Source: an uncultured Holophagaceae bacterium (GTDB lineage: Bacteria > Acidobacteriota > Holophagae > Holophagales > Holophagaceae). Taken from it: a stretch of DNA of 43,754 nt. Below are positions 27,503-30,497 of this stretch, one piece after another. The number at the start of each line of letters is the position of its first letter. The stretch's first letter is position 1. The position numbers were made by a program, and so were the translations under genes. The stretch covers positions 1-43,754 of the forward strand of contig CAIPAY010000243.1 of the NCBI GenBank assembly GCA_903863195.1, read 5' to 3'. Under the pieces are notes generated by a model that searched no databases, had not been told where the DNA came from, and saw only the letters and a program-made list of their open reading frames with translations.

Positions 27503-28534
27503 CTACTTCACGCCCCAGTCGAGGATCACCTTGCCGCTCTGGCCGCTGCGCATGGCGTCGAAGCCCTGCTGGAAGTCGTCGATGCCGAAGCGGTGGGTAA
27601 TCACGGGGCTGATGTCCAGGCCGCTCTGGATCATGGCGGCCATCTTGTACCAGGTCTCGAACATCTCCCGGCCGTAGATCCCCTTCAGGATCAGCCCCTT
27701 GAAGATCACCTGGCTCCAGTCCACGGCGCAGTCCCCGGGCAGGATGCCCAGCAGGGCGACGCGGCCGCCGTGGTGCATGGCCTCCAGCATCGACTCGAAG
27801 GCGTTGCGGTTGCCGCTCATCTCCAGGCCCACGTCGAAGCCCTCGGTCATGCCCAGCTGCACCATGACTTCTGGCAGGGTGGTCTTGGCGGCGTTCACGG
27901 CCAAAGTCGCGCCCATCTTGCGGGCCAGGTCCAGGCGGTACTCGTTCACATCCGTGATGACCACGTGCCGAGCGCCCACGTGCTTGGCGATGGCGACGGC
28001 CATGATGCCGATGGGTCCGGCGCCGGTGATGAGCACGTCCTCGCCCACCATGTCGAAGCTGAGGGCCGTGTGCGCGGCGTTGCCATAGGGATCGAAGATG
28101 GCGGCGGCCTCGTCCGAGACGTTGTCCGGCACCTTGAACACGTTGAAGGCCGGGATGCTCAGATATTCCGCGAAGGAGCCTGTGCGGTTCACGCCCACAC
28201 CCACGGTGTTGCGGCAGAGGTGCCGCTTGCCGGCCCGGCAGTTGCGGCAGTGCCCGCAGGTGATGTGCCCCTCGCCGCTGACCCGGTCGCCGGGCTTGTA
28301 GCCCTCGACCTCGCCGCCCACCCGCTCGATGATGCCGTAGTACTCGTGGCCCACCACCATGGGCACGGGAATGGTCTTCTGGGCCCACTCGTCCCAGTTG
28401 TAGATGTGGACGTCGGTGCCGCAGATGGCGCTCTTGTGGACGCGGATCAGCACGTCGTTGTGGCCCACTTCGGGCAGGGGAACCTCCCCCATCCAGATGC
28501 CTTCCTCGCGCTTGGACTTGAGCAGTGCCTTCAT
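27503..28534 (-). CDS. tdh: L-threonine 3-dehydrogenase
   Basis: 343 residues from ATG 28534, preceded by GGAGG at 5-nt spacing. The open frame extends upstream to 28714, but that part is not protein-like. It oxidises L-threonine to 2-amino-3-ketobutyrate with NAD+. The sequence tracks the E. coli enzyme closely by eye: [15 protein letters not shown], then [15 protein letters not shown] (catalytic Zn Cys), [14 protein letters not shown] (structural Zn), [17 protein letters not shown] (NAD fold) and [16 protein letters not shown]. The product is the substrate of Kbl, encoded at 31839-33035 on the same strand but not in the same operon. Confidence 0.98.
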
Positions 28535-28588
28535 GGAGTCCTCCACTGCCTCCATTTCACCACCACCGCCAAGGAACCGGGTCCGGAC

Positions 28589-28616
28589 TTGACGATCTGT
28601 GAACCCAGCCGATAAA
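28589..28616 (+). promoter_or_regulatory. Predicted sigma70 promoter of the asnB leader
   Basis: The -35 element TTGACG (28589-28594, 5 of 6 consensus) is followed by a 16-bp spacer and the -10 element GATAAA (28611-28616, 4 of 6). Transcription would begin near 28623, about 12 nt before the leader-peptide ATG. The -10 lies inside an 18-bp imperfect direct repeat. Confidence 0.65.
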
Positions 28617-28634
28617 GTGAACCCAGGCGATTCA
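28599..28634. repeat. 18-bp imperfect tandem repeat over the asnB -10 region
   Basis: GTGAACCCAGCCGATAAA (28599-28616) is followed at once by GTGAACCCAGGCGATTCA (28617-28634). Fourteen of 18 bases agree. It covers the spacer end, the -10 and the start site. It could be an operator for a regulator shared with divergent tdh, or a chance duplication. Confidence 0.55.
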
Positions 28635-28721
28635 ATGACTACTCCCCTCCCGCGGCCCAACCGCAACAATAATCGGCTCCCTCGCGCGGATCGTGCGTGG
28701 GCCGGTGAGGGCATCTCCTAG
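28635..28721 (+). CDS. Asn-rich leader peptide of the asnB attenuator
   Basis: A 28-codon ORF from ATG 28635 to TAG 28719-28721, with AGGCG 5 nt upstream of the start. Codons 9, 11, 12 and 13 are AAC, AAC, AAT, AAT (peptide segment PNRNNNRL). Four Asn in five codons is far above expectation in this GC-rich genome, where AAT is also a rare codon. The ORF lies between a good promoter and an intrinsic terminator directly upstream of asparagine synthetase. The arrangement matches leader peptides of amino-acid operons under ribosome-mediated attenuation, such as those of trp, his and thr. The peptide itself probably has no function beyond sensing charged tRNA-Asn. Translation is inferred, not shown. 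Confidence 0.75.
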
Positions 28722-28752
28722 ATTCCTGCTTCCCCGGACCACCCCGATTCGC
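28686..28752 (+). promoter_or_regulatory. Candidate antiterminator pairing in the asnB leader
   Basis: GCGGATCG at 28686-28693, 13 nt after the last Asn codon, repeats exactly the GCGGATCG of the terminator 3' arm (28757-28764). It can therefore pair instead with the terminator 5' arm CGATTCGC (28745-28752). A rival upstream hairpin is GGCCCA (28654-28659) with TGGGCC (28698-28703), extended by CGCA (28662-28665) with TGCG (28694-28697); it encloses three of the four Asn codons. A ribosome stalled on the Asn codons would block the rival hairpin and favour antitermination. Confidence 0.6.
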
Positions 28753-28778
28753 GCAAGCGGATCGGGGCTTTTTCTTTT
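28742..28778 (+). terminator. Intrinsic terminator (attenuator) upstream of asnB
   Basis: CCCCGATTCGC (28742-28752), a GCAA tetraloop and GCGGATCGGGG (28757-28767) form an 11-bp stem with one U-G pair, followed by CTTTTTCTTTT (28768-28778). The asnB ribosome site GGAG (28779-28782) abuts the U-tract. No full-length gene on this strand ends upstream, so its natural role is premature termination of the asnB leader transcript. Confidence 0.85.
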
Positions 28779-28787
28779 GGAGTTTCC

Positions 28788-30497
28788 ATGTGCGGCATCC
28801 TCACCATCCTCGGCATCGACCCGGCCCGTTCGAACCCCGCGGAGCTTCGGCGCCAGGCCCTGGCCATGGCCCGGAAGATCCGGCACCGGGGACCGGACTG
28901 GAGCGGCATCTACAGCGATGAGCGGGCCATCCTCGTCCACGAGCGGCTCTCCATCGTGGACGTGGAGCACGGCGCCCAGCCTCTGCTGGACACCCTCAAG
29001 GGCACGGTGCTGGCGGTCAACGGGGAGATCTACAACCACAAGGAGCTCCGCGAGGGGCTGACCGGGGTCCACGACTTCCAGACCAAGTCGGACTGCGAGG
29101 TCATCCTCTACCTCTACGACGAGCTGGAGCCCCGGGACTTCCTGAACCGCATGAACGGCATCTTCGCCTTCGTGCTCTACGACCCCAAGCGCGAGACCTA
29201 CCTCATCGCCCGGGATCCCATCGGCGTCATCCCCCTCTATGTGGGCTGGGACAAGCACGAGAACCTCATCGTCGCCTCGGAGATGAAGGCCCTGGTGGGC
29301 CACTGCGAGCGCATCCGCGAGGTGCCGCCCGGCACCTACTTCCTGGGCCACGAGGCGGACCAGGGCTTCCAGCGCTACTACCAGCCGGACTGGGCGGAGC
29401 CGGGCTACGTCCCCACGGAGCCCTACGATCCCGTCGCCCTGCGCGAGTCCCTGGAGGCCGCCGTCCACCGCCAGCTCATGTGTGACGTCCCCTATGGCGT
29501 GCTCATCTCCGGCGGTGTGGACTCCTCCATCATCTCGTCCGTCGCAGCCAAGTTCCGGGACAACCGCGTGGAAGAGGGCGATTCGGGCCCCGCCTGGTGG
29601 CCCCGCATCCACAGCTTTGCCGTGGGCCTGGTGGGCGCCCCGGACCTGGCCCCGGCCCGCAAGGTGGCCGACTACATCGGCGCCATCCACCATGAGATCC
29701 ACTTCACGGTGCAGGAGGGCCTGGATGCCCTGTCCGACGTGATCCACCACATCGAGACCTTCGACGTCACCACCATCCGGGCCTCGACCCCCATGTATCT
29801 CCTCATGCGGAAGATCCGGGCCATGGGCATCAAGATGGTGCTGTCCGGCGAGGGCGCGGATGAGATCTTCGGCGGCTACCTCTACTTCCACAAGGCCCCC
29901 AACGGCCAGGAGCTGCACGAGGAGCTGGTCCGCAAGCTCCAGAAGCTGCACCTCTATGACTGCGCCCGGGCCAACAAGTCCAGCGCCGCCTGGGGTGTGG
30001 AGGCCCGCGTGCCCTTCCTGGACCGGGAGTTCCTGGACGTGGCCATGCGCATGAACCCGGACGTCAAGCTGCCCCGCAACGCCCCCCGGCCCAGGCCCAT
30101 GGAGAAGTGGCCGCTGCGCCAGGCCTTCGTGGGGGCCATCCCCGATGAGGTGCTGTGGCGCCAGAAGGAGCAGTTCTCGGACGGCGTCGGCTACTCCTGG
30201 ATCGACTCCCTGAAGGCCCACGCGGAGAAAGAGGTCAGCGACCGCATGCTGGCCGGCGCCGCGGAGCGCTTCCCGGTGAAGACCCCCGAGACCAAGGAGG
30301 CCTACCTCTACCGCCAGCTCTTCGAGCACCACTTCCCCAGCGCCACCGCCATCAACTGCGTCCCCTTCGAGCGCAGCGTCGCCTGCAGCACCGAGACCGC
30401 CCTGCGCTGGGATGCCGCGTTCGCGAACATGGCTGACCCCTCCGGCCGCGCCGTCATGGACATCCATGATGAGGGCTACAAGGCCGACAATGCCTGA
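28788..30497 (+). CDS. asnB: Asparagine synthetase B (glutamine-hydrolysing)
   Basis: A 569-residue class II glutamine amidotransferase that makes Asn from Asp, Gln and ATP. Cys2 (MCGIL) is the glutaminase nucleophile. RHRGPDWSGIY, HERLSIVDV and VNGEIYNHKEL are the Gln-binding motifs. The PP-loop SGGVDSS at 241-247 starts the synthetase domain. GEGADEIFGGYLYFHKAP and WRQKEQFSDGVGYSW follow, ending in DPSGRAV as in E. coli AsnB, which it matches by eye over its whole length. GGAG with 5-nt spacing precedes ATG 28788. Expression is probably set by the attenuator at 28635-28778. The next small ORF overlaps its 3' end by 8 nt. Confidence 0.98.
   Translation: MCGILTILGIDPARSNPAELRRQALAMARKIRHRGPDWSGIYSDERAILVHERLSIVDVEHGAQPLLDTLKGTVLAVNGEIYNHKELREGLTGVHDFQTKSDCEVILYLYDELEPRDFLNRMNGIFAFVLYDPKRETYLIARDPIGVIPLYVGWDKHENLIVASEMKALVGHCERIREVPPGTYFLGHEADQGFQRYYQPDWAEPGYVPTEPYDPVALRESLEAAVHRQLMCDVPYGVLISGGVDSSIISSVAAKFRDNRVEEGDSGPAWWPRIHSFAVGLVGAPDLAPARKVADYIGAIHHEIHFTVQEGLDALSDVIHHIETFDVTTIRASTPMYLLMRKIRAMGIKMVLSGEGADEIFGGYLYFHKAPNGQELHEELVRKLQKLHLYDCARANKSSAAWGVEARVPFLDREFLDVAMRMNPDVKLPRNAPRPRPMEKWPLRQAFVGAIPDEVLWRQKEQFSDGVGYSWIDSLKAHAEKEVSDRMLAGAAERFPVKTPETKEAYLYRQLFEHHFPSATAINCVPFERSVACSTETALRWDAAFANMADPSGRAVMDIHDEGYKADNA

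Follow-up and report, generated by a model that had tools for sequence, protein, structure and literature searches.

A putative asparagine-sensing leader-peptide attenuator upstream of asnB in Holophagaceae and related leaders at other amino acid biosynthesis genes

The region 28620-28787 upstream of asnB in an uncultured, Geothrix-like member of the Holophagaceae very likely is a ribosome-mediated transcription attenuator, which would adjust the expression of asnB to the supply of charged tRNA-Asn. Its switch half (approximately 28675-28776) appears, from sequence comparison, to belong to a Holophagaceae family that is found at several amino acid genes with matching sensor codons. We consider it probable that one attenuator module was duplicated within the Holophagaceae onto different amino acid genes and re-aimed by new sensor codons, with its RNA switch retained; versions for Phe, Pro, His and possibly Gln would be included, with up to five copies per genome. 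Ribosome-mediated attenuation is of the classical kind, and the family of re-aimed copies would be the part that is new to a specialist.

Results

The asnB locus and its leader ORF

The window, i.e. the whole analyzed stretch of 43,754 nt, is part of a draft assembly (G000) of 3.6 Mb in 267 contigs. The asnB gene (28788-30497, plus strand, as all features below unless stated otherwise) encodes a glutamine-hydrolysing asparagine synthase B (NF006949/PRK09431, 829 bits versus a cut-off of 499). The protein shares 96-98% identity with those of assemblies from Holophagaceae (Acidobacteriota) and 81-87% with those of named Geothrix species. The tdh gene for L-threonine 3-dehydrogenase (27503-28594, minus strand, as translated; the family match starts at about residue 21) is oriented divergently, and a promoter, a 28-codon ORF and a terminator are situated between the two genes. 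One sigma-70-like promoter was found (28589-28618: TTGACG, an 18-nt spacer, TAAAGT), while 0.0 were expected in shuffles, and TTGACG and GATAAAGT/GATAAGGT-like boxes were seen in most relatives. Probable Shine-Dalgarno motifs precede the leader ORF (AGG, 28625-28627; CAGG is retained in most relatives) and asnB (GGAG, 28779-28782).

For comparison, 35 distinct asnB upstream regions, all from Holophagaceae, were collected by protein searches. The leader ORF (28635-28721, stop codon at 28719) has an ATG in 33 and a stop codon in 34 of the 35 aligned rows. It contains four Asn codons, which start at 28659, 28665, 28668 and 28671. Codon 9 (AAC, 28659-28661) encodes Asn in 34 of the 35 rows; of codons 11-13 (28665-28673), codon 11 does so in 31, codon 12 varies (Asn in 10), and codon 13 (28671-28673) is an Asn codon in all 35. 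The Asn codons switch synonymously between AAT and AAC. The sole indel among the sensor codons comprises 3 nt, adds one AAT and keeps the frame; the gaps that follow the stop codon comprise 1 and 4 nt. The leader peptides of all relatives share the pattern NRNxNR.PRA[DN]RAWxG. Codon 13 lies outside every conserved pairing and yet is invariant, which speaks for its being read by a ribosome, and it is the probable stall codon. As in known leader-peptide attenuators, a short upstream ORF is thus rich in codons for the end product of the pathway, and we infer that it is translated. Upstream of more distant asnB genes from Gammaproteobacteria, Bacteroidota and others (L018-L081), no convincing Asn-rich leaders were found.

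Terminator and antiterminator

An intrinsic terminator is situated between the leader ORF and asnB. Its hairpin of 11 pairs, CCCCGATTCGC-GCAA-GCGGATCGGGG, spans 28742-28767 and is followed by the T-run CTTTTTCTTTT (28742-28779 including the T-run). The region contains no other terminator-like site (expectation from shuffles, 0.2), and 99% of the terminator's pair cells are kept in the asnB leaders. The initial annotation had noted that the 8-mer GCGGATCG of the terminator 3' arm (28757-28764) also occurs at 28686-28693, and that CGATTCGC at 28745-28752 can pair with either copy. The coordinates and both pairings were confirmed. Of 20,000 dinucleotide-shuffled leaders, 463 (2.3%) contained an 8-mer of the terminator 3' arm a second time, so that the duplication in one sequence is only suggestive; conservation in homologues settles whether it is real. 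There, the expectation that the duplicate would be kept held for the pairing and failed for the exact repeat: the duplicate is retained in only 19 of the 35 distinct homologous leaders, whereas the 8-bp antiterminator core 28686-28693/28745-28752 is complete in all 35. Most leaders that lack the exact duplicate have GCGAATCG as the upstream copy, with A-U in place of G-U and no loss of pairing; in three (L091, L109 and L020), the terminator copy is altered instead. The substituted base is nearly always one that can still pair. Pairing rather than identity is therefore what matters.

The antiterminator turned out to be one long hairpin, and thus larger than had been annotated. The nascent RNA to 28756 folds such that segment 2 (28684-28705), which includes the first GCGGATCG, pairs with segment 3 (28734-28754) with a pair probability of 1.0 and an energy of -38.6 kcal/mol. 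GCGCGGATCG (28684-28693) pairs with CGATTCGCGC (28745-28754), followed by GTGG/CCAC and CCGG/CCGG up to 28705/28734. Both arms are supported by folding, conservation and covariation. Segment 3 overlaps the terminator 5' arm, so that antiterminator (2:3) and terminator (3:4) share 28742-28754 and are mutually exclusive, as had been proposed. The 28686/28745 pairing also proved competitive. It wins in the nascent RNA to 28756; once the second GCGGATCG is included, the terminator fold has an advantage of 1.6 to 4.5 kcal/mol, which varies with where the ribosome is placed. Such a small difference in energy between the two folds would be expected for a switch.

The terminator is strong on its own, and a single 8-mer duplication has the chance in shuffles given above. 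Both points would fit a plain intrinsic terminator or a constitutive attenuator next to a chance ORF, with asnB controlled solely at the promoter. However, this reading is very improbable given the invariant Asn codon, the frame-preserving indel in the sensor region, the synonymous changes, the antiterminator that is complete in 35 of 35 leaders, and the codons of related leaders, which fit the downstream pathway (see below).

The protector hairpin

The initial annotation had also proposed a third hairpin, GGCCCA (28654) with TGGGCC (28698) plus CGCA (28662) with TGCG (28694), as the 1:2 element that completes the logic with the 2:3 and 3:4 pairings. These motifs are present, and the latter two pairings were borne out. 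In contrast, the third hairpin is not a conserved anti-antiterminator: GGCCCA/TGGGCC is complete in 24 and CGCA/TGCG in 4 of the 35 leaders, and covariation is lacking. The conserved 1:2 equivalent is predicted to be a local hairpin nearest to the stall codon (28679-28701, CCC/GGG plus CGCGCG/CGTGCG, -13.4 kcal/mol), which competes with the antiterminator. All 9 pairs of this protector (28679-28681/28699-28701 and 28683-28688/28692-28697) are present in all 35 rows, with a double change from C-G to U-A in L017, and it covaries in the wider family. When a ribosome is stalled at codon 13 over its 5' edge, a remnant of -4.3 kcal/mol is left. In terms of energy, attenuation would favor the long hairpin 28654-28703 as its main anti-antiterminator, because the segment in isolation adopts this fold at minimum energy (-18.9 versus -13.4 kcal/mol for the local hairpin); the conservation pattern renders this variant unlikely. 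The long hairpin may nevertheless form as an additional state in this species.

Proposed mechanism

When Asn-tRNA is plentiful, the ribosome would pass N-R-N-N-N and reach the stop codon at 28719. There it would cover about 28701-28731, which is immediately downstream of the protector and within the antiterminator loop. Segment 2 would then fold on itself (28679-28701) and leave segment 3 free, and the terminator (28742-28767) would halt transcription before asnB. When Asn-tRNA is scarce, the ribosome would wait with its A site on codon 13 (28671) and cover the protector at its 5' edge. The emerging segment 3 would then pair with segment 2, whose start at 28684-28686 is just past the stalled ribosome; the terminator would be blocked, and asnB would be transcribed. 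Segment 2 starts 13-15 nt past the first base of codon 13, the last Asn codon, which is about the distance to the leading edge of a ribosome. Similar offsets were found in one proC leader and two class-II 3-deoxy-arabino-heptulosonate phosphate (DAHP) synthase leaders.

Equilibrium folding with masked ribosome footprints predicted the antiterminator in the nascent RNA and the terminator in the full-length RNA at any ribosome position. Such folding therefore does not distinguish between a stalled and an unstalled ribosome, and the model has to rely on a kinetic switch, as the classical attenuators do. The elements, their conservation, their mutual exclusion and their energies are what the sequence analysis shows; that the leader is translated, that the ribosome stalls, that the order of folding in time decides the outcome, and that asnB responds to asparagine are inferences of the model.

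The trp, his, leu, ilv, thr and phe attenuators of Proteobacteria and Actinobacteria likewise have a short ORF with end-product codons, an antiterminator and a terminator that share a strand, and a terminator just before the biosynthetic gene. The asnB leader differs in that asparagine would be sensed, asnB is the target and the host is an acidobacterium. Furthermore, the compact protector is entirely downstream of the sensor codons, and the stop codon is situated past the protector, within the antiterminator loop.

In Firmicutes, Asn genes are commonly under the control of T-boxes. A T-box, compared here via Rfam, would likewise sense the charging of tRNA-Asn and act on transcription termination. 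The strongly conserved RNA core of the asnB leader would be compatible with direct recognition of tRNA-Asn or asparagine by a T-box or a riboswitch, or with a trans-acting RNA, instead of leader translation. However, the Rfam search of the whole window yielded no family at the gathering score, including T-box and the Trp, His, Leu and Thr leader families; the ORF is conserved with an invariant Asn codon, and the RNA core is constant while the sensor codons differ by gene. These alternatives are therefore hardly credible, and the sequence features point to sensing by a translated leader.

Outside the classical phyla, leader-peptide attenuators have been described for hisZ/hisS in bacilli (Naville and Gautheret 2010, PMC2965389); the asnB leader is a likewise non-classical case with a different amino acid, gene and phylum. 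Almost none of the attenuators of Acidobacteriota had an assigned function (PMC2965389). In the literature searched, no paper on a leader-peptide attenuator for asnB or asparagine was found, which is weak evidence of absence because subscription journals were poorly covered. With the asnB leader, asparagine would join the list of amino acids that are sensed through leader-peptide attenuation, and this leader and its relatives would assign functions to attenuators of Acidobacteriota.

Related leaders upstream of other amino acid genes

A covariance model (R1) built from the asnB leaders revealed second and third loci in relatives, and the own genome (G000) was searched by model, pattern and protein. 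The additional loci contain leader ORFs with the same tail and other sensor codons, upstream of genes of the matching pathways. Tyr/Trp leaders with the asnB-type switch (MTPRFHRYYWFPRADRAWHGEGPA; another example is RFHRYYWFPRADRAW) precede class-I DAHP synthase in Geothrix relatives (L152-L160, L162, L175-L178, L180, L181); upstream of the DAHP synthase of G000 itself (L204), the Tyr/Trp leader is absent. Class-II DAHP synthase is preceded by a Tyr/Phe leader (MTPPCTFFYYFGFRTPVRVGGVLR). Phe leaders precede pheA, the gene for chorismate mutase-prephenate dehydratase; one of them (MSTSRRFFFFSFRTSGARLSGV), with a terminator, is encoded in the same genome as the asnB leader (G000:C109:40232-40327; L247, L269, L273; model R2, E 6.7e-13). 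Pro-rich leaders (PRPS..P) with terminators precede proC (MSALRLQTPRPSQPPCGAPAGEGLS) and, in the close relatives G003 and G023, proB/proA (MTVSVSLYPRPSHPIPMVGSKGV); they were found at L163, L165, L166, L169, L170, L188, L190, L212-L222, L274-L287, L289, L290 and L293. Asn leaders (RQNNRNNANPSTDRAW) also precede an archaeal-type, AsnRS-like asparagine synthetase (L161, L173, L186), which was identified by its match to PDB entries 1nnh (E 3e-14) and 3p8t (E 2e-10) and is not homologous to AsnB. The leader type thus tracks the product and not the gene family.

A second model, built for the switch half, detected at most five members in any of the 93 genomes of the class, and nothing outside the family in these genomes. 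A phylum-wide search yielded only weak matches outside the family, and the best of these (L168) has no leader-like codon run. One candidate before a carA-like gene (L184) was set aside because it has no leader ORF.

A sequence-only profile of the Asn leaders matched the aro leaders with E-values of about 1e-9 to 1e-18 and those of class-II DAHP synthase with 1e-8 to 1e-9; its matches to the pheA and proC leaders were weaker and covered the downstream half. In the joint alignment described below, the invariant AAT (Asn) of asnB is opposite TAT (Tyr) of the DAHP synthase leaders, and the next codon CGG is opposite TGG (Trp); both are one-base differences. For the asnB, aro and archaeal-type asparagine synthetase leaders, common descent with codon change is the simplest reading, and no direction of change is claimed. 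An automatic antiterminator duplex test was clear for class-II DAHP synthase (0 of 500 shuffles), whereas several pheA, proC and proBA leaders were no better than shuffles; the test picked the wrong last sensor codon in some rows, e.g. RAN in L017 and L013. For the pheA, proC and proBA leaders, convergence on a common layout is possible.

The asnB leaders alone were too alike to give a covariation signal. When 24 of them were aligned jointly with 20 related leaders (16 aro and 4 others), most of which precede genes other than asnB, covariation of the protector, the antiterminator and the terminator was in each case above 500 of 500 shuffles, a control that ignores relatedness. The numbers of cells changed on both sides, observed versus shuffles, were 8 versus 1.7 for the protector, 17 versus 2.2 for the antiterminator and 13 versus 4.6 for the terminator. 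Slid controls had fewer paired cells in all cases and fewer both-side changes, with the exception of the antiterminator slid by -1 (19 versus 17). The pair 28689-28749 is G-C in 19, G-U in 14 and A-U in 11 leaders and is broken in none.

The tail RADRAW/RANRAW is conserved in Asn and aro leaders, as would be expected if a nascent peptide stalled the ribosome by its own sequence and not by codon supply. However, the third base is constant in the conserved Ala 21 codon (GCG) and variable in the unpaired Gly 24 codon, so that RNA pairing explains the conservation of the tail; moreover, the RADRAW peptide is absent from pheA, proC and proBA leaders of the same layout. Peptide arrest is thus extremely improbable compared with stalling by codon supply. 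The wider family is a natural series in which sensor codons differ and the switch is constant, and codon swaps would make the origin and the specificity change of attenuators testable.

Four further leaders were observed. An Asn-type leader (MSLVHPQIKRNTNLPRVDRAWAG; L172:1867-1981, minus strand) precedes the gene for a 579-aa protein without an NCBIfam or Pfam match. A leader with three Trp codons and a terminator (MTFYFGSFASAAYFGWWWRAGSDGDATN; L291:114-236, minus strand) is followed by a gene that is cut by the contig end. Two single cases are leads: a leader with four Gln codons (RQQQQ; MRSSSRQQQQNPRPPANREGTREGRG, L182:1012-1143) ahead of an ammonium transporter gene, which may possibly sense glutamine, and a His leader with a GTG start and a terminator (VILASRHHASHHVAHRVTGAAF, L292:905-1001) ahead of hisG.
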